Assembly: GCF_030530745.1 (NCBI RefSeq)
Contig: NZ_JAUMUI010000011.1
Location: forward strand, 1 to 64,000
Source: Neisseria sp.
GTDB taxonomy: Bacteria > Pseudomonadota > Gammaproteobacteria > Burkholderiales > Neisseriaceae
Direction: 5' to 3'
Length of the DNA stretch: 64,000 bases
Below are positions 35,390 to 43,034 of this stretch, one piece after another. Below the pieces are notes generated by a model that did no database searches, was not told the DNA's origin, and worked only from the letters and a program-made list of their open reading frames with translations. Both the position numbers and the translations under genes were made by a program. The first letter of the stretch is position 1, and every line of letters begins with the position of its first letter.

Positions 35390-35554
35390 GGTCTGTTTAC
35401 AATTAGCGTAACGGCGGTATTTTTGGTCAAAAATCCCCGTCTGCGGCGTTAGGCAGCGTAGCGGGCTTGCGAAGCTAAAATGCCCGCAGGTGTCCAACCT
35501 TGCTGCGCTTTTTGCCTCAAAAAACCACTTCATCGGCCAATTGTCAACAGCTCC
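35389..35554. mobile_element. Family A MITE, copy 3 (inverted)
   Basis: This 166-bp element has ends GGGTCTGTTTACAATT (35389-35404) and AATTGTCAACAGCTCC (35539-35554), flanked by TA at 35387-35388 and 35555-35556. Its interior is the reverse complement of copies 1 and 2. It fills exactly the space between two convergent genes; TA plus its terminal G (or C on the other side) yields a TAG stop for each. Confidence 0.85.
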
Positions 35555-36969
35555 TAGCCTTCTCTCTTCAGCCTTTCCAATAAATCTTGCGGAGCGACAT
35601 ATTCCAAAGCGTTTCCTGATTTGAACGGCACTAAGAATCTATATTCACCTAGTTTGCTTAAATCGCTGCGGGCAGTATTCAAAGAAACACCATATTGATT
35701 GGCAATTTCTTGTGCGGTAAAAATTTTCCCGCTTTCTTCCACTGCTTTTTGTAGAATACCAATTTGCCGTTGGTTTAACTTTCCTATCTTTTTGGTATAT
35801 TTGGCAATTGCTGCTTTGAACTCCTGCTGGTGTTTCTGCTTGTTAGAAATATAGTTTTCCAAATCGGCGACTGCCCGCTTGATAATGTCGCATTGATAGT
35901 AAATGAAATAGGTTAAATCCAAATTATCGGTTTCTGCATATAGATAGGATTTTGCATATTGAGCAGGAGCATTTTTCAGTAGGCGGCTGATGGATATGTA
36001 TTCAAACAGCCAATAACCGTTTTTGAGCATAAACCAATAAAATAAAGCCCGCGCCGTCCGCCCGTTGCCGTCGCCGAATGGGTGGATATAACCGATCAGG
36101 AAATGCAGGATAATGGCTTGCACAACCGGGTGGATAAACGGATTTTCCCCGCCGTCATAAGTGTTGTTGGCAAACGTGCATACCGCTTCCATTAGTTCAT
36201 AAACCTGTTCGTGCGGAGGCGGTTGATACAGGCTGTTGCCGTCGGCATCGGCAATAAAGATTTCATTATCTTGTCTGAATTGTCCGGGTTCGGCGCGGTT
36301 TTCAATGGCATTTCTTGTGGCGGTACGGTGCAAATCCAAAATCATTTCAATGCTTAATGGCGTATTTTTCAAGTCCACCGCTTTTTTCATCAAGTGATAG
36401 TTGTTCACTATCATGATTTCGTCTTTGGTTTTGGGTTTGCGTTGTGATTTGAGCATATCCTTGGCCACTTGGCGCGTGGTGGCTGCGCCTTCTAATTGTG
36501 CCGATGTAATCGCCTCTTCCATAATCAGAGATTTAAGCAGAAACCTGTTCTGCTCGCTTCTGCCGAAACCGCCCAAGCTCGACGTGCCGATAGTGCTGCC
36601 GCAGCTTTTATCAATCAAATGAAGCCGTGCCTGTAAAGAATCGGGAATACAGAATCTGAATTGATGCCCATGCGGAAAATCAATCGGTTTTTGGATTTTT
36701 CTGCGGCTTTCCTGCACTGCCCGCCATTTCATCCGTGTATCCTGCGTGTGTATCCTGCGGAATTTATCCCAATGCAGATAAGCTCCGTTCTCATCGGTAA
36801 CGGAAAATTCGGAATAATCTTTGATTTCAGCAAAAAAATCAGGAATATCCATATCGGGATTGTTTTCAGCAGAGCGGAGCAGCTTGGCGGTTTGTGCCAT
36901 CTTTTCGGTGAAATGTTGCACATATTCTTGCTGCAAGAGGGCAAATTTCGGAGGACTAGAGATTTTCAT
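35554..36969 (-). CDS. Fic family protein (AMPylase type) with C-terminal winged helix
   Basis: The 471-residue protein carries the Fic motif HPFGDGNGRTAR, which in this family catalyses transfer of AMP from ATP to target hydroxyls. An N-terminal inhibitory-type helix is visible in EEAITSAQLEGAATT (the (S/T)xxxE(G/N) pattern with Ser and Glu), so activity is probably autoinhibited. The dimer-type DUF4172/Fic_N layout precedes the Fic core. A C-terminal helix-turn-helix (KIFTAQEIANQYGVSLNTARSDLSKLGEYRFL) suggests it may bind DNA. A 14-bp palindrome sits 11 bp upstream of the start. Its TAG stop is formed by the adjacent MITE. Targets are unknown. Confidence 0.9.
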   Translation of the reverse strand: MKISSPPKFALLQQEYVQHFTEKMAQTAKLLRSAENNPDMDIPDFFAEIKDYSEFSVTDENGAYLHWDKFRRIHTQDTRMKWRAVQESRRKIQKPIDFPHGHQFRFCIPDSLQARLHLIDKSCGSTIGTSSLGGFGRSEQNRFLLKSLIMEEAITSAQLEGAATTRQVAKDMLKSQRKPKTKDEIMIVNNYHLMKKAVDLKNTPLSIEMILDLHRTATRNAIENRAEPGQFRQDNEIFIADADGNSLYQPPPHEQVYELMEAVCTFANNTYDGGENPFIHPVVQAIILHFLIGYIHPFGDGNGRTARALFYWFMLKNGYWLFEYISISRLLKNAPAQYAKSYLYAETDNLDLTYFIYYQCDIIKRAVADLENYISNKQKHQQEFKAAIAKYTKKIGKLNQRQIGILQKAVEESGKIFTAQEIANQYGVSLNTARSDLSKLGEYRFLVPFKSGNALEYVAPQDLLERLKREG

Positions 36970-36979
36970 AATGAATACC

Positions 36980-37013
36980 AAGATAACTCAATTTTTTATA
37001 ATTGAGTTATCTT
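36980..37013 (-). promoter_or_regulatory. Perfect 14-bp palindrome at the fic promoter
   Basis: Arms AAGATAACTCAATT (36980-36993) and AATTGAGTTATCTT (37000-37013) flank a 6-bp AT spacer, ending 11 bp upstream of the fic start. On the minus strand the centre contains a TATAAA-like -10, so a bound protein could block transcription. An operator for the HTH-bearing Fic protein itself is the simplest reading, but this is inference. Confidence 0.6.
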
Positions 37014-37086
37014 AGTCACTTTGAAGGAAAATGGAAAGTATTTTAACAAAGTATACGGAAAGTCATTACATTAAAAACCTATCCCA

Positions 37087-37838
37087 CTAGGTACTCCGCC
37101 ATACGATAATGCCGCAGGCTAGATACAGCATGGCGAGATAGTTCTCGGGCAGTTTCTCCCACTGGACAAGTATTTGCCGGAAACGGTTGAGTCATCCGTA
37201 CGTCCTTTCCACTACCCAACGTCTCGCTTTGAAACCCTCCCCCTTCTCCAGCTCCTTCTTCTCTTCCCCACGGCTGCGGATGTGTGCGGTATATCCCATC
37301 GCTTTAACAAACGCCCTTACTTTGCGGCTGTCATAGCCTTTGTCCATGCACAAACCATGCCCCTCTCCCGCCTCAAGGAGCGGTTTCTCTATCTGTAAGC
37401 TTTTCAAGGTCTCTTCCACCAGTCCCGCATCATGGCGGTTCGCCCCGTCAACCGCAACCGATAGGGGGATGCCCGCCGCATCGGTCAACAGACTGCGCTT
37501 TACTCCTTGTTTTCCCCGGTCGGTCGGGTTAGCCCCTGTTTTTTTTCGTCGGCAAGCGGGGCTTTGGTTACAGCGCCGTCCATTGATACCCAAGACCGGT
37601 CAATCCCCCGTGTTTCTTGGTATTTTTCCAGCCCTTTCTGCCATAGCTTGAGGAAAACGCCCGCCTTGTTCCATTCTTGAAAACGGCGGTGGGCAGAACT
37701 TGACGAACAAATTCCGGTGGCGTTGAGGGCATTCCATTGACAGCCCGTGCGCAAAACGAAAAAGATGGCGTTCATTGCGCTTCTGTCGGGTACTCGGGGA
37801 CGATGGCATCCCAAGGGGTGGGGTCTGCGTGGTGGCAA
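37087..37838 (-). pseudogene. IS5-family transposase, main fragment (frameshift type, with nonsense mutation)
   Basis: The first part reads PPRRPHPLGCHRPRVPDRSAMNAIFFVLRTGCQWNALNATG…VSMDGAVTKAPLADEKK, the OrfA half of IS427-like transposases. At a run of eight A on the coding strand (37539-37546) the frame changes to TGANPTDRGKQGVKRSLLTDAAGIPLSVAVDGANRHD…CMDKGYDS…RRWVVERTYG, the OrfB half with DDE residues; slippery A runs are the normal programmed frameshift site of this group. An in-frame TGA at 37192-37194 stands where Trp is expected, and family-like sequence (LNRFRQILVQWEKLPENYLAM) continues to a TAG at 37087-37089. The N-terminus is missing, replaced by insert DNA. The element is therefore dead in two ways. 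Confidence 0.85.
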
Positions 37839-37843
37839 TAAAA

Positions 37844-37993
37844 GTAAATGAATGTGTCAGCGTGGACGATTTAGCTAAATGCGGAGAAATTTATTACCAA
37901 ATTTTAGCTAATTTATTAAATAAATCCTTCTCTTATTAAGGAGTGCAAAAGGCCGTCTGAAAGATGATTTTCAGACGGCCTTTGTTTCACCGT
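37844..37993. other. Left part of the inserted segment, upstream of no gene
   Basis: This AT-rich stretch downstream of the gst gene contains a loose dyad (ATTTAGCTAAAT…AATTTTAGCTAATTT) and a DUS-pair terminator at 37948-37983 (AAAGGCCGTCTGAAA with its inverse). No coding signal was seen. Confidence 0.5.
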
Positions 37994-38620
37994 TTAAAAG
38001 CGGCTCAAATCCAGCCCGCCGCCGGTTTTTTCATCGGCTTTGCGGTAGGCGGGGTGGGTTTCGATTTGCTCAAGGTAGCGGACGATGTTCGGGTAGGCGG
38101 CTTTATCCACATAATTCAAGCCCCATTGCAGCGGGAAGGAAAGGGCGAAATCGGCACCGGTGAGCTGCTCGCCGACAATCCATTTTCGGCCTTCCAGCGT
38201 GCTTTCCACATGGTTGAAATAGAGCCCGACTTGGGCATCGGTGTAGGCGGCGAATTCGCCCAAATCGCCTTTTTTGGAGACCAGCGCCAGCAGGTTCGCC
38301 GAAAACATCGAGGCGGAAACCGCCAGCCAATATACATAGTTAGAATAATCGTCGGTCTGACGGGCGGGGGTGAAGCGGTTTTCGCCGTCGTAGCGGTCGA
38401 GCAGGTGCTGGATAATGGCGTTGCCCTCTGCCAGTATCAAACCGCCGTCCTGCAATACGGGCGCTTTGCCGAGCGGATGCTGTGCTTTGAGTTCGTCTGG
38501 GGCAAAACCTGTGCCTTCCAAACGGTCGTAGATTTTCAGTTCGTAATCCAAACCGAGGGCTTCCAAAAGCCACACGATGCGGTGCGAGCAGGATTGTTTG
38601 AGGTAATGCAGGGTAATCAT
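37994..38620 (-). CDS. Glutathione S-transferase family protein (second copy type)
   Basis: The 208-residue protein shows a GST thioredoxin-like half (MITLHYLKQSCSHRIVWLLEALGLDYEL, with LGKAPVLQDGGLILAEGNAIIQHLLDRY giving the cis-Pro and the E/S-type γ-glutamyl site) and a helical C-terminal half with GADFALSFPLQWG. It resembles Neisseria and enterobacterial YfcF/YncG-like or Gst-3-like proteins; substrate is unknown. Start at 38620 has TAGGAGAAAC upstream. It lies with ohr inside an insertion that splits an IS5-family element. Sequence differs clearly from the GST at 26043-26663. Confidence 0.85.
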   Translation of the reverse strand: MITLHYLKQSCSHRIVWLLEALGLDYELKIYDRLEGTGFAPDELKAQHPLGKAPVLQDGGLILAEGNAIIQHLLDRYDGENRFTPARQTDDYSNYVYWLAVSASMFSANLLALVSKKGDLGEFAAYTDAQVGLYFNHVESTLEGRKWIVGEQLTGADFALSFPLQWGLNYVDKAAYPNIVRYLEQIETHPAYRKADEKTGGGLDLSRF

Positions 38621-38686
38621 GGTGTTTCTCCTATAAAAAACGGTTGGTTTTTGCAAAATTTTGCGGAAAAAAGACCGCTTGTAAAA

Positions 38687-38718
38687 ATGCCGTCTGAAAG
38701 ACATTTTTCAGACGGCTT
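38687..38718 (-). terminator. DUS-pair hairpin of AT dialect between ohr and gst
   Basis: ATGCCGTCTGAA (38687-38698) with the inverse at 38707-38718 follows ohr. Unlike most uptake sequences here, it has the ATG-form typical of N. meningitidis and N. gonorrhoeae. Confidence 0.7.
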
Positions 38719-38727
38719 TATCAATGG

Positions 38728-39159
38728 TTACAAATCAAACGACTGAATCAGATTCACGTGCAGGCGTACATCGACATTACCGCGTACGGCATTGGAGTAC
38801 GGGCAGACTTCATGTGCTTTTTGAATCAGCTTTTTCGCCTCTTCCTCGCTCACGCCTTCCACGGTGATGGTGATGTCCAAATCCAGACCGAAGGCACCGT
38901 CGGGTTTTTGACCGATACCGACTGCCACGCTGGTGGACGATTTTGTCGGTTTGATGCCCAGAGTCGGGGCGACGTGGTTCATGGCACTGTCGAAACAGGC
39001 AGCGTAGCCCATGGCAAACAGCTGCTCGGGGTTGGTGCCTTGTTTGCCTTCGGTATTTTGAAAGCCGACCAAATCAAAGCCGATAGATCCGTCGTCCACG
39101 CGGGTGTGGCCGTCGCGTCCGCCGGTGGCGGTGGCTGAAGTGTGATAGAAAATTTTCAT
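38728..39159 (-). CDS. ohr: Organic hydroperoxide resistance protein (OsmC/Ohr family)
   Basis: The 143-residue protein matches Ohr, a thiol peroxidase that reduces organic hydroperoxides with lipoyl reductants. The two redox cysteines are visible in FAMGYAACFDSAMNH (about residue 55) and AHEVCPYSNAVRG (about 119). It starts MKIFYHTSATATGGRDGHTRVDDG, as Ohr proteins do. The Shine-Dalgarno is AAGGAG (39169-39174 on the complementary strand). Ohr is usually controlled by the MarR-type OhrR; no ohrR is adjacent. The 5' end abuts a fragment of IS5 transposase, whose reading frame runs into the ohr start codon. Confidence 0.94.
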   Translation of the reverse strand: MKIFYHTSATATGGRDGHTRVDDGSIGFDLVGFQNTEGKQGTNPEQLFAMGYAACFDSAMNHVAPTLGIKPTKSSTSVAVGIGQKPDGAFGLDLDITITVEGVSEEEAKKLIQKAHEVCPYSNAVRGNVDVRLHVNLIQSFDL

Positions 39160-39180
39160 GGGTTGCTCCTTAAAGTAGGG

Positions 39181-39245
39181 TAAAAAGGTTCTATCTGAGC
39201 CCAAAGCCCGTCGCTGATGAGCCATTTGTCGGTTGATTTGTTCAT
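39181..39245 (-). pseudogene. IS5-family transposase, N-terminal fragment
   Basis: From an ATG at 39243-39245 the minus strand encodes MNKSTDKWLISDGLWAQIEP, the usual start of IS427-like OrfA, then breaks at the TAAAA junction. The next residues expected, PPRRPHPLGCH, begin the fragment at 37838. The broken frame reads on to a TGA overlapping the ohr ATG. Confidence 0.75.
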
Positions 39246-39340
39246 AATCGCCTCCCGGGGTGAGATGGGTATTTGCTCATTTGACCATTCCTAATGGGAT
39301 AGGTTCTAAGTCAGCAGTTTCAAGAATGGAAAATAAAGTA

Positions 39341-39449: not shown

Positions 39450-40082
39450 CTAAATTTTGTCTTCTGCCGGGTCTATTCTCCAGTAATGTTCTGGATTTCT
39501 TGTACATTCAACAGTAGGAAAACGTTCAGTAACTTTGCGTTTTTTTAAATCGCCATTTGGATGATAAAAGTCAATCCATTTGCTTGGTTTATTATAATAC
39601 TTCATTTCTCCCCCGCATTTTGGGCAATTGCACGGAAAAATTTTTTCTAATGTTAATTTTCCACCTTTACCATTTAAGGCGTAATTGACAAATAAAGGAA
39701 CTCTAATTTGCTTTTTAGCAATTTGCCGAAGTTTACATACAATTAAGAATGGAGCAGAAAATATCATAAATAAAATAAGATAGAGCCAACTATTTGTTTG
39801 AGTAACGCCTTTAAGACTGTCAAGTGCGCCAAAAAATAATGTACCAAAGGGTATTAAACTAAGAATACCAAGCAAAACACTAATCCAAGTTAATGCAGCC
39901 AACGTGAAAGGGTTTCTCCATCTAGGTTCAGCTCGATACAATTCTAATTTATCAACATTGGATTGCTTTTTAGCATAATTGTGCTGATGAACTGTATTAT
40001 ATTGATCTCCTTTTATATATTGATCTCCAATTTGTGTTGAACCATTAAAAGTTGCATCTTTAAAATTATTTTCTTGTTTCAT
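39450..40082 (-). CDS. AT-rich membrane protein with Asn/Gly/Gln-rich N-terminus and zinc-type cysteines
   Basis: I do not recognise this 210-residue protein. The N-terminus FNGSTQIGDQYIKGDQYN (12-29) is a polar, repeat-like stretch. Two hydrophobic segments follow at about 59-80 and 98-117. The C-terminal domain has CNCPKCGGEMKYY (C151, C153, C156) with ECTRNPEHYW (C193, H199), a plausible zinc site. Base composition is much more A/T-rich than its neighbours, implying recent acquisition. The ATG at 40082 has GGAG; an upstream in-frame ATG at 40103 does not. It starts 49 bp after the uvrA stop on the same strand and could be read from the uvrA transcript. Confidence 0.75.
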   Translation of the reverse strand: MKQENNFKDATFNGSTQIGDQYIKGDQYNTVHQHNYAKKQSNVDKLELYRAEPRWRNPFTLAALTWISVLLGILSLIPFGTLFFGALDSLKGVTQTNSWLYLILFMIFSAPFLIVCKLRQIAKKQIRVPLFVNYALNGKGGKLTLEKIFPCNCPKCGGEMKYYNKPSKWIDFYHPNGDLKKRKVTERFPTVECTRNPEHYWRIDPAEDKI

Positions 40083-40131
40083 TATATTTTTCTCCAAATT
40101 CAAGAATTAATTAAAACATAACTGTATTAAG

Positions 40132-42954
40132 TTATAAAATTTTTTGTAAATACTTCCCCGTATAACTCCCCTTAACCTTCACCACTTCCTCAGGGCTACC
40201 CTCTGCAATAATCCGCCCGCCGCCGTCGCCGCCTTCCGGCCCCAAGTCCACAATATAATCCGCCGTTTTAATCACATCCAGATTATGCTCAATAATCACA
40301 ATCGAGTTGCCTTTGCCTTTCAGACGGCCTATTACCTCTAATAACAAGGCAATATCGGCGAAGTGCAAACCCGTGGTCGGTTCGTCGAGAATATATAAGG
40401 TGCGGCCGGTGTCGCGTTTGGAGAGTTCCAAAGCGAGTTTGACGCGTTGGGCTTCGCCGCCGGAGAGGGTGGTGGCGGATTGGCCGAGGCGGATGTAGCC
40501 CAAACCCACGTCCATCAGGGTTTGCAGTTTTCGGGATACGGTGGGCACGGCGTCGAAGAATTGGCGGGCTTCTTCTACGGTCATGTCCAGCACTTGGCTG
40601 ATGTTTTTGCCTTTGTATTGCACTTCCAGCGTTTCGCGGTTGTAGCGTTTGCCGTGGCAGACTTCGCAGGGGACGTAAACGTCGGGCAGGAAGTGCATTT
40701 CCACTTTAATCACGCCGTCGCCTTGGCAGGCTTCGCAGCGGCCGCCTTTGACGTTAAACGAGAAGCGGCCGACGTTGTAGCCGCGTTCGCGCGAAAGGGG
40801 GACGCCGGCGAAGAGTTCGCGGATGGGGGTGAACAGCCCCGTATAAGTGGCGGGGTTGGAGCGCGGGGTGCGGCCGATGGGGGATTGGTCTACGTTAATC
40901 ACTTTGTCGAGGTGTTCGAGGCCTGTGATGTCGTCATAGGGGGCAGGTTCTTCGTGGGCGCGGTTGAGTTCGCGGGCGGTGATTTTCGCTAATGTGTCGT
41001 TAATCAGGGTGGATTTGCCGCTGCCTGAAACGCCTGTGATGCAGGTGATTAAGCCGAGCGGGAGTTTGAGGGTTACGTTTTTGAGGTTGTTGCCGCGCGC
41101 GCCTTTGAGCACCAGCATTCTTTCGGGGTTGACCGGTGTTCTTTCAGACGGCACTTCGATTTTTTTCTTGCCGCTTAAATATTGGCCGGTAACGGAATCG
41201 GCGCATTCGGCCACTTGTTTGGGCGTGCCCGCCACCAGCACGGTGCCGCCGTGTTCGCCTGCGCCCGGGCCCATGTCCACCACGAAATCGGCTTCGCGTA
41301 TCGCGTCTTCGTCGTGTTCCACCACAATCACGCTGTTGCCCAAATCGCGCAGGCGTTTGAGGGTGGCCAATAGGCGGTCGTTGTCGCGCTGGTGCAGGCC
41401 GATGGAGGGTTCGTCTAAAACGTACATCACGCCGGTGAGGCCGCTGCCGATTTGGCTGGCCAGGCGGATGCGCTGGGCTTCGCCGCCCGAAAGGGTTTCG
41501 GCGGAACGGGACAAGTTGAGGTAATCGAGGCCGACATTAATCAGAAAGCCCAAACGTTCGGTGATTTCTTTGAGGATTTTTTCGGCGATTTGTTTTTTGT
41601 TGCCGTCCAAATCGAGTTTTTCAAAGAATTCATGGGTTTTGGTGAGCGGCCAGGCGGAAATTTCGTGCAACGCTTGTTTGCCCACGTAAACATAGCGGGC
41701 TTCTTTGCGCAGGCGCGCGCCGCCGCAGCTGGGGCAGGCTTTGTGGCTTTGGTATTGCAGCAGCTCTTCGCGCACGGTGTTGGAATCGGTTTCGCGGAAG
41801 CGGCGTTCGAGGTTGGGGATGATGCCCTCGAAAGCGTGGCTGCGGTTGAAGGTGGTGCCTTTTTCGGAAAGGTAGCGGAAATCGATGATTTCTTTGCCCG
41901 AGCCGTGCAGCACCGTTTTTTTCACTTTTTCAGGCAGCTTTTCAAACGGCGTGTCCACGTCAAAATCATAATGCGCGGCCAGCGACTGAATCATTTGGAA
42001 ATAAAACTGGTTGCGTTTGTCCCAACCTTTGATTGCACCCGCCGCCAATGATAACTCGGGGTGCATCACCACGCGATCGGGGTCGAAAAAGTTCATATTT
42101 CCCAAGCCGTCGCAGGTGGGGCAGGCGCCGACGGGGTTGTTGAAGGAAAACAGGCGCGGCTCCAGTTCGGGCAGGCTGTATGAGCAGACGGGGCAGGCGA
42201 AGCGGGCGGAAAACCAGTGTTCTTCGCCGCTGTCCATTTCCAAAGCCAGCGCGCGTTCGCCGCCGTGGCGCAGCGCGGTTTCAAAACTTTCGGCCAGCCG
42301 CTGCTTGATGTCGGCCTTCACCTTCACGCGGTCGATGACCACGTCGATATTGTGCTTGATGTTCTTTTCGAGCTTGGGCACTTCGTCGAGCTGGTAAACC
42401 TCGCCGTCCACGCGCACGCGGGCGAACCCCTGCGCCTGCAAATCGTGAAAAAATTCGACAAATTCTCCTTTGCGTTCGCGCACGGCGGGGGCAAGTATCA
42501 TCACGCGCGTGTCTTCAGGCAGCCCCAAAACATGATCCACCATCTGTGAAACGGTCTGGCTGGCCAGCGGCAGGTTGTGTTCGGGGCAGTAAGGCGTGCC
42601 GACGCGGGCATACAAGAGGCGCAGGTAGTCGTGGATTTCGGTTACCGTGCCCACGGTGGAGCGCGGGTTGTGGCTGGTGGATTTCTGCTCAATCGAAATC
42701 GCCGGCGACAAGCCTTCAATCAAATCGACATCGGGTTTGTCCATCATCTGTAAAAACTGGCGCGCATAGGCTGAAAGGCTTTCCACATAGCGTCGCTGGC
42801 CTTCGGCATAGAGGGTGTCGAACGCCAGCGAAGACTTGCCGCTGCCCGACAAACCCGTTACCACCACGAGCTGATGGCGCGGAATGTCGAGGTCGATGTT
42901 TTTCAAATTGTGGGTGCGTGCGCCGCGGATGCGGATGGTGTCGTTGTTGCTCAT
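40132..42954 (-). CDS. uvrA: Excinuclease ABC subunit A
   Basis: The 940-residue damage-recognition ATPase of nucleotide excision repair has two ABC modules. The first P-loop is [35 protein letters not shown] near residue 30 and the second [17 protein letters not shown] in the C-terminal half; each has an LSGGEAQR signature. Zinc fingers are visible as [32 protein letters not shown] and [32 protein letters not shown]. The start at 42954 ([21 protein letters not shown]) matches the family; codons upstream come from a DUS. It is followed closely by an AT-rich membrane gene. Confidence 0.97.
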
Positions 42955-43034
42955 GTCTGCTTGAGGCCGTCTGAAAAATGAAACCGCGTATTGTAGCATT
43001 TTTCAAAGAAAACCGCGGGGTTAGGTAAAGGGAA

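Follow-up and report, generated by a model that had tools for sequence, protein, structure and literature searches.

We identified, downstream of uvrA in the genome of a Neisseria sp. (NCBI RefSeq assembly GCF_030530745.1), a small insertion sequence (IS) of the IS5 family that is interrupted by horizontally acquired genes. The stretch analyzed, hereafter the window, comprises positions 1 to 64,000 of contig NZ_JAUMUI010000011.1. In it, the transposase gene of the IS is split after ~20 codons by a 1.34-kb insert encoding an organic hydroperoxide resistance protein (ohr) and a glutathione S-transferase family protein (gst). The resulting structure is not a new kind of mobile unit. We propose, with a probability of about 0.7, that it records two separate events, namely transposition of the IS and then the joining of the ohr-gst segment into its transposase gene. 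The parts of the element are:

37072..37074, unstranded: TAA, the left of two copies of the 3-bp target duplication; ISAzo38 is likewise flanked by a 3-bp match of its own (TTA), and genome G018 keeps ATTAA here
37075..37091, plus strand: left terminal inverted repeat, from comparison of ends
37075..37842, minus strand: 3' part of the IS5-family element, with the transposase from about codon 21 in overlapping frames 37838-37500 and 37593-37192
37192..37194, minus strand: stop codon within the transposase frame; C-terminal sequence resembling the family goes on in frame past it
37843..39183, minus strand: insert of 1341 bp carrying ohr and gst; AAA on both sides leaves a 3-bp uncertainty in its edges
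39184..39306, minus strand: 5' part of the IS, with transposase codons 1 to ~20 at 39184-39245
39290..39306, minus strand: right terminal inverted repeat, from comparison of ends
39307..39309, unstranded: right copy of the 3-bp target duplication (TAA), read from the sequence

The limits of the element (37075-39306; 2232 bp) were set by comparison with ISAzo38, an IS5-family element on plasmid 2 of Aromatoleum aromaticum, and with a decayed relative in genome G016. Both have the same ends and no insert. The terminal inverted repeats of the split IS (17 bp, 15/17 matched) are of the same type as those of the two relatives. An independent search recovered the inverted ends at 37076-37091 and 39290-39305 (16 nt, 94%), so the claim of the original prediction that matching ends bound ~2.23 kb holds, with slightly refined limits. 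TAA borders the split IS on both outer sides and TTA borders ISAzo38 on both sides, which fits a 3-bp duplication of the form T-N-A. The element has both the terminal repeats and the short target duplication of an ISAzo38-like member of the IS5 family. Also as predicted, the IS parts without the insert (768 and 123 bp) come to ~0.89 kb; ISAzo38 measures 894 bp and the G016 copy 876 bp.

The two transposase pieces lie on the same strand and, judged by sequence comparison, are complementary, consecutive parts of one protein and of one IS type, in agreement with the earlier claim. Specifically, 15 residues of the right piece (39184-39245) match residues 8-22 of an Azotobacter transposase frame (locus L037; 67%). 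The left piece aligns with residues 31-135 of that frame (69%), which itself has stops further on. The left frames match the Pfam domains DUF4096 (from profile position 13) and DDE_Tnp_1, the domain content of the IS5 family. Against NCBIfam NF033580, the two left frames align to positions 19-112 and 106-225 of the 258 in the profile; as partial sequences, neither reaches the whole-protein cut-off of 110 bits. The original prediction likened the element to IS427, a subgroup to which it may belong.

Uninterrupted relatives (ISAzo38 and the G016 copy) align straight through both insert junctions. Together with the NF033580 coverage, these alignments give no indication that the pieces come from different IS elements, and the complementary pieces and uninterrupted relatives support the insertion of the detoxification genes into a single IS. 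By the same alignments, the repeat at the insert junctions is at most AAA (3 bp). The sequence TAAAA does occur at both inner junctions, as first reported, but the 5-bp duplication tentatively read from it does not stand, as only AAA can be shared. ISAzo38 too shows two overlapping transposase frames at an A-run; we therefore rejected the overlap as a sign of decay, since this layout does not require damage. The split and the in-frame stop suggest that the IS, as it stands, could not move by its own transposase.

We found a single copy of the IS in the window genome, and no second 2.2-kb unit there or in the 46 other genus genomes (47 genomes searched, with up to six candidates per genome scored; the sample has one genome per species). 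Searches with the left IS part in 84 family genomes (up to six candidates per genome) and 399 order genomes (up to two) returned nothing at close identity besides the window's own copy. The best match elsewhere is that in G016 (69% over 204 bp, plus shorter pieces), and IS matches in the order sample lie in four genomes, in pieces of 26-355 bp. ISAzo38 is 65% identical at the DNA level over 37076-37841. Among plasmids, the best 20 of 72 records matched at 65-72%, while 50,697 phage records contained no match to the IS. Transposase relatives in named genomes share 50-64% protein identity (79 loci of 130 relatives were kept, none used further), and no close cognate transposase was found in the genomes searched. 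The further suggestion that the 2.2-kb unit might be mobile with its passenger genes is not supported, given the single copy, its absence from relatives, the split transposase gene with its stop and the lack of a close cognate transposase.

The site of insertion can be read from the neighboring genes:

35554..36981, minus strand: Fic gene (SoFic-like), left of the IS, by Pfam and PADLOC; its protein is 92% identical to one encoded beside uvrA in G018
39450..40103, minus strand: ORF217, an open reading frame (ORF) of 217 aa with 32% GC, between the IS and uvrA; no family match
40132..42999, minus strand: uvrA, conserved right neighbor, its name read from its sequence

G018 has uvrA and this Fic gene side by side. 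Between G018 and the window, DNA similarity ends at 37078 (the end of the IS, given the ambiguity of an A-run) and begins again only at 40136 in uvrA, indicating that the IS, ohr, gst and ORF217 are absent from the G018 site. We found uvrA in 45 of the 47 genus genomes (44 besides the window's) and compared the 3' flank of 43 of these, 1.5-4.8 kb downstream, leaving out G023. None of the 43 contains ohr, gst, the transposase or ORF217, and only that of G018 contains the Fic gene. An ancestral position of gst and ohr at this locus, which would have spoken against an insertion, is not what these flanks indicate.

The insert contains the following features:

37948..37983, unstranded: inverted pair of DNA uptake sequences (DUS; GCCGTCTGAA), after gst
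37994..38620, minus strand: gst, glutathione S-transferase family, 208 aa, with Pfam GST_N and GST_C
38649..38682, minus strand: Apl-type Pasteurellaceae uptake signal sequence (USS), with a core of the ACAAGCGGT type (PMC1626085)
38685..38719, unstranded: inverted pair of DUS between ohr and gst, terminator-like, 2 bases from the USS
38728..39159, minus strand: ohr, organic hydroperoxide resistance protein, 143 aa, by TIGR03561 and PDB Ohr relatives

The Ohr protein belongs to its family by TIGR03561 (160.5 bits against a cut-off of 88.85) and matches Ohr chains of solved structure in PDB. A second ohr copy, 82% identical to that of the window, lies on contig C41 of the same genome. The C41 copy pairs with that of G011 (90.3%, support 0.997), and G011 and G012 are the nearest genomes by uvrA (92%). 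The window ohr, in turn, is 73-82% identical to nine of the 11 other copies compared; for the G035 and G010 copies the identity is 63-65%. Its own partner is the G017 copy (support 0.88). Given these pairings, the window ohr looks like a foreign second copy, unlike the apparently vertical C41 copy. Since ohr starts at 39159, 24 bp inside the insert, its transcription may begin in the IS part. We rejected an IS-end promoter as an established fact: a sigma-70 scan gave three promoter-like sites in the region against 2.5 expected, and none in the IS end before ohr. One of the three lies upstream of gst and overlaps the USS.

The gst gene most likely starts at 38620. No NCBIfam model scored above its cut-off, and we refer to the product as a GST-family protein without a closer name. 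Its closest relatives are proteins of 66-69% identity in G008 and G044, where the gene order is reversed (gst before ohr) compared with the insert (ohr first, then gst). The best plasmid match to gst is 44%, and a donor search among 369 class genomes at E up to 1e-60 returned one genome, that of the window itself.

GCCGTCTGAA occurs 93 times in the window, where 0.1 copies would be expected; this fits Neisseria, and four of these copies make up both hairpins of the insert. The Apl-type USS between ohr and gst matches the core at 10/10 and segment 3 at 13/14 positions, with the published spacing (PMC1626085). A 24-base pattern taken from it occurs exactly once in the window genome, and in the class sample the USS pattern was found in one of 369 genomes, again the window's. 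The class sample thus seems to be without genomes rich in Apl-type USS, and a Pasteurellaceae donor would lie outside its reach. In the genus, the USS core is not strongly over-represented (179 copies in 47 genomes, against 148 for a reversed control), and at least one core is present in 44 of the 47 genomes.

We compared the surroundings of USS cores in 67 of the 179 cases. Twelve ohr copies were located by DNA similarity and taken with spans of ~3.2 kb (1.8 kb for one; a 65-bp match in G045 was left out), and 62 further cores were fetched from 15 genomes. Five cores lie near four of the 12 ohr copies, against 0.074 expected from genome counts, and the sole two cores of G017 form an inverted pair beside ohr. 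Segment 3 matches at 10/14 or better in 5/5 ohr-linked and 12/62 other cores (Fisher 0.0006), and at 12/14 or better in 2/5 and 3/62 (Fisher 0.04); a DUS is close to the core in 3/5 and 5/62 (Fisher 0.01). Weighing against a link are the full published spacing motif, which is present in one of the five ohr-linked cores (the window's) and four of the 62 others (Fisher 0.33), and the double counting of the G017 pair in these tests. One comparison core, in G008, also sits 2.4 kb from an ohr. Because the tests were devised after the first case was seen, we consider the link between Apl-type USS and ohr suggestive only. Outside the window, the Apl-type cores near ohr are at L034:1714-1759 (G017), L029:10684 (G008) and L033:1144 (G018), and those in G008 and G018 adjoin a neisserial DUS. 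Apl-type signals with the full motif are present at other places in Neisseria too, including one on contig C21 of the window genome.

We propose that a small IS5 element of the ISAzo38 kind would first have transposed into a TAA before the SoFic-like gene, within the variable region on the 3' side of uvrA, making a 3-bp duplication. The ends, the length, the flanking TAA and the IS-free site of G018 support this step. The 1.34-kb ohr-gst segment would then have entered an A-run ~20 codons from the start of the transposase gene, dividing that gene in two, as the complementary pieces and the uninterrupted relatives suggest. Given the neisserial uptake sequences and the Pasteurellaceae-type signal in the insert, the segment most likely entered the cell by natural transformation, and the A-run junction points to illegitimate or microhomology-assisted recombination as the way it was joined. 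The element would now be an immobile relic. Several observations weigh against this two-step account. The AAA overlap fits microhomology and the target duplication of another element alike, and no donor locus with a matching ohr-gst order or matching flanks was found. The decayed G016 copy has no visible duplication, and any given 3-bp flanking match has a chance of ~1/64 of being accidental, or higher if the end alignment may slide. Also, the empty site sought in relatives exists in G018 in that the IS is missing there, but the right flank past 39309 is absent as well, so the pre-insertion site is readable on the left side only.

We weighed four other explanations. The whole uvrA-Fic stretch, with ORF217, the split IS, ohr and gst, may have been imported in one transformation event from a species in which the IS was already interrupted. 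The uvrA flank does differ between genomes, and the swapping of whole cassettes between neisserial genes has been described (PMC3082526). No genome searched showed the same stretch, however, and such an import would alter the place of insertion, not the way in which the structure arose; we regard it as unlikely. Arrival of the 2.2-kb unit as a whole, as a mobile-insertion-cassette-like or passenger-carrying IS moved in trans with the outer TAA made by the composite, would explain why both terminal repeats are present with TAA outside each, and such objects are known (PMC3129680). This origin is also unlikely, and somewhat more so, considering that the unit was found only once in the 47 genus genomes searched and the left IS part gave no close match in the family and order samples, that the passenger genes lie inside a transposase gene that also has a stop, and that no close cognate transposase was found.

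The same-strand arrangement of the two pieces is, in addition, what a relic of a compound transposon would show, with ohr-gst flanked by two direct-orientation IS copies, each later truncated. The pieces, however, adjoin at a single position in the transposase, where hardly any sequence, if any, is lost and no more than 3 bp is repeated. Both deletions, though independent, would have needed an identical end point, and we judge this history very improbable. Finally, the genome is a draft of 53 contigs, in which unrelated sequence might have been joined inside the IS by an assembly error. With both junctions inside an 80-kb contig, outer ends and flanking TAA that fit, and a single IS copy found, hence no known repeat on which to misjoin, we give such an error hardly any credence.

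Across the genus, the region beyond the 3' end of uvrA (40132 in the window) resembles an antiphage hot spot, as far as family resemblances, rather than demonstrated defense functions, can indicate. Gene content there varies by genome, with 89 clusters among 115 ORFs from 43 loci. We rejected variability alone as a mark of the 3' flank, since the 5' flank shows about the same degree of it (39 clusters of 57 ORFs, versus 39 of 50). One near ORF per 3' locus was scanned with PADLOC (match, E up to 1e-10) for 38 of the 43 loci (L222-L261, L185, L207 and L213); the five unscanned ORFs are L241, L251 and L260 (housekeeping enzymes by Pfam), L261, and L185 (the G018 Fic gene). Matches were obtained for 22 of the 38 scanned ORFs, or 22/43 with unscanned ORFs as misses, and include AbiU, TIR/ThsB, HEC-01A, HEC-02A, HEC-06/GmrSD, PD-Lambda-5, AriA/PtuA-like and KwaA, among others; some are AAA ATPases that match many models. 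On the 5' side, four of 20 ORFs from 20 of the same genomes matched (three mad3-like ATPases and one QatD), compared with 12/20 on the 3' side of these genomes, with their one unscanned ORF counted as a miss (Fisher 0.02). The window Fic gene is SoFic-like by PADLOC and far under the NCBIfam cut-off. ORF217 has no Pfam, PADLOC or NCBIfam match and is, by position only, a candidate defense gene. Among the open-access papers considered by title, which for the broadest query were 12 of 143, none concerns the uvrA 3' site. A broader interpretation, which we consider quite improbable, has dead IS elements in this variable, antiphage-rich region acting as landing sites for cassettes that arrive by transformation, here one with ohr and gst that bears tags for uptake by both Neisseria (DUS) and Apl-type Pasteurellaceae (USS), and has the resulting unit keep ends that a related IS5 transposase might still use.

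A cluster of 16 ORFs (L236:2710-3240 and 15 others) recurs in uvrA 3' flanks. Its single tested member, from G002, is a REP-associated tyrosine transposase (NF047646), and the cluster may help shape the hot spot. The segment 39342-39452 is a ~110-bp repeat dispersed in many genus genomes, several of which have it in the uvrA 3' flank as well. A 17-bp inverted repeat (94%) with a 6-base loop, possibly an operator or hairpin, lies at 36977-37016, where the Fic gene starts. A match between 37669-37682 and 39318-39331 was rejected as a second IS remnant, as it is only 14 bp long (judged by eye).

The locus offers a readable two-step record, in which the IS marks a site and a foreign peroxide-detoxification segment then lands inside it. 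If the double uptake tags are what they suggest, ohr-gst segments would be exchanged by Neisseria and Pasteurellaceae, giving stress-tolerance genes a route from one to another of the bacteria living on the same mucosal surfaces. Work on natural exchange involving Haemophilus and Neisseria (Kroll 1998) is cited in PMC2397512. Neisserial genes were reportedly found there to be tagged with the uptake signals of the other family, according to Kroll. In the present insert, by comparison, the signal is of the Apl type and no donor has been identified.

Among known systems, ISAzo38 resembles the window IS in its terminal repeat type (GAACCTAT...), its T-N-A 3-bp flank, its two overlapping transposase frames with an A-run and its length of 0.89 kb; it differs in being uninterrupted and in its DNA sequence, of which 65% is identical over the left part. 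The minimal mobile elements of Neisseria are cassettes swapped by transformation between conserved genes (PMC3082526). The window locus is similar in having differing cassettes beside a conserved gene in a genus that exchanges DNA by transformation, but minimal mobile elements need two conserved flanks, whereas here uvrA alone was examined as a fixed flank and its 5' side is also variable. Transporter ISs and mobile insertion cassettes carry genes unrelated to transposition between IS ends (PMC3129680), and the window unit shares this arrangement. Unlike a transporter IS, it has a transposase gene that is split rather than whole, and that also contains the stop at 37192-37194. Compared with a mobile insertion cassette, it has ends around other genes plus transposase remnants, and shows no sign of movement, with no second site in the window genome or the 46 other genus genomes. 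A unit bounded by IS ends, therefore, need not be a mobile transposon.

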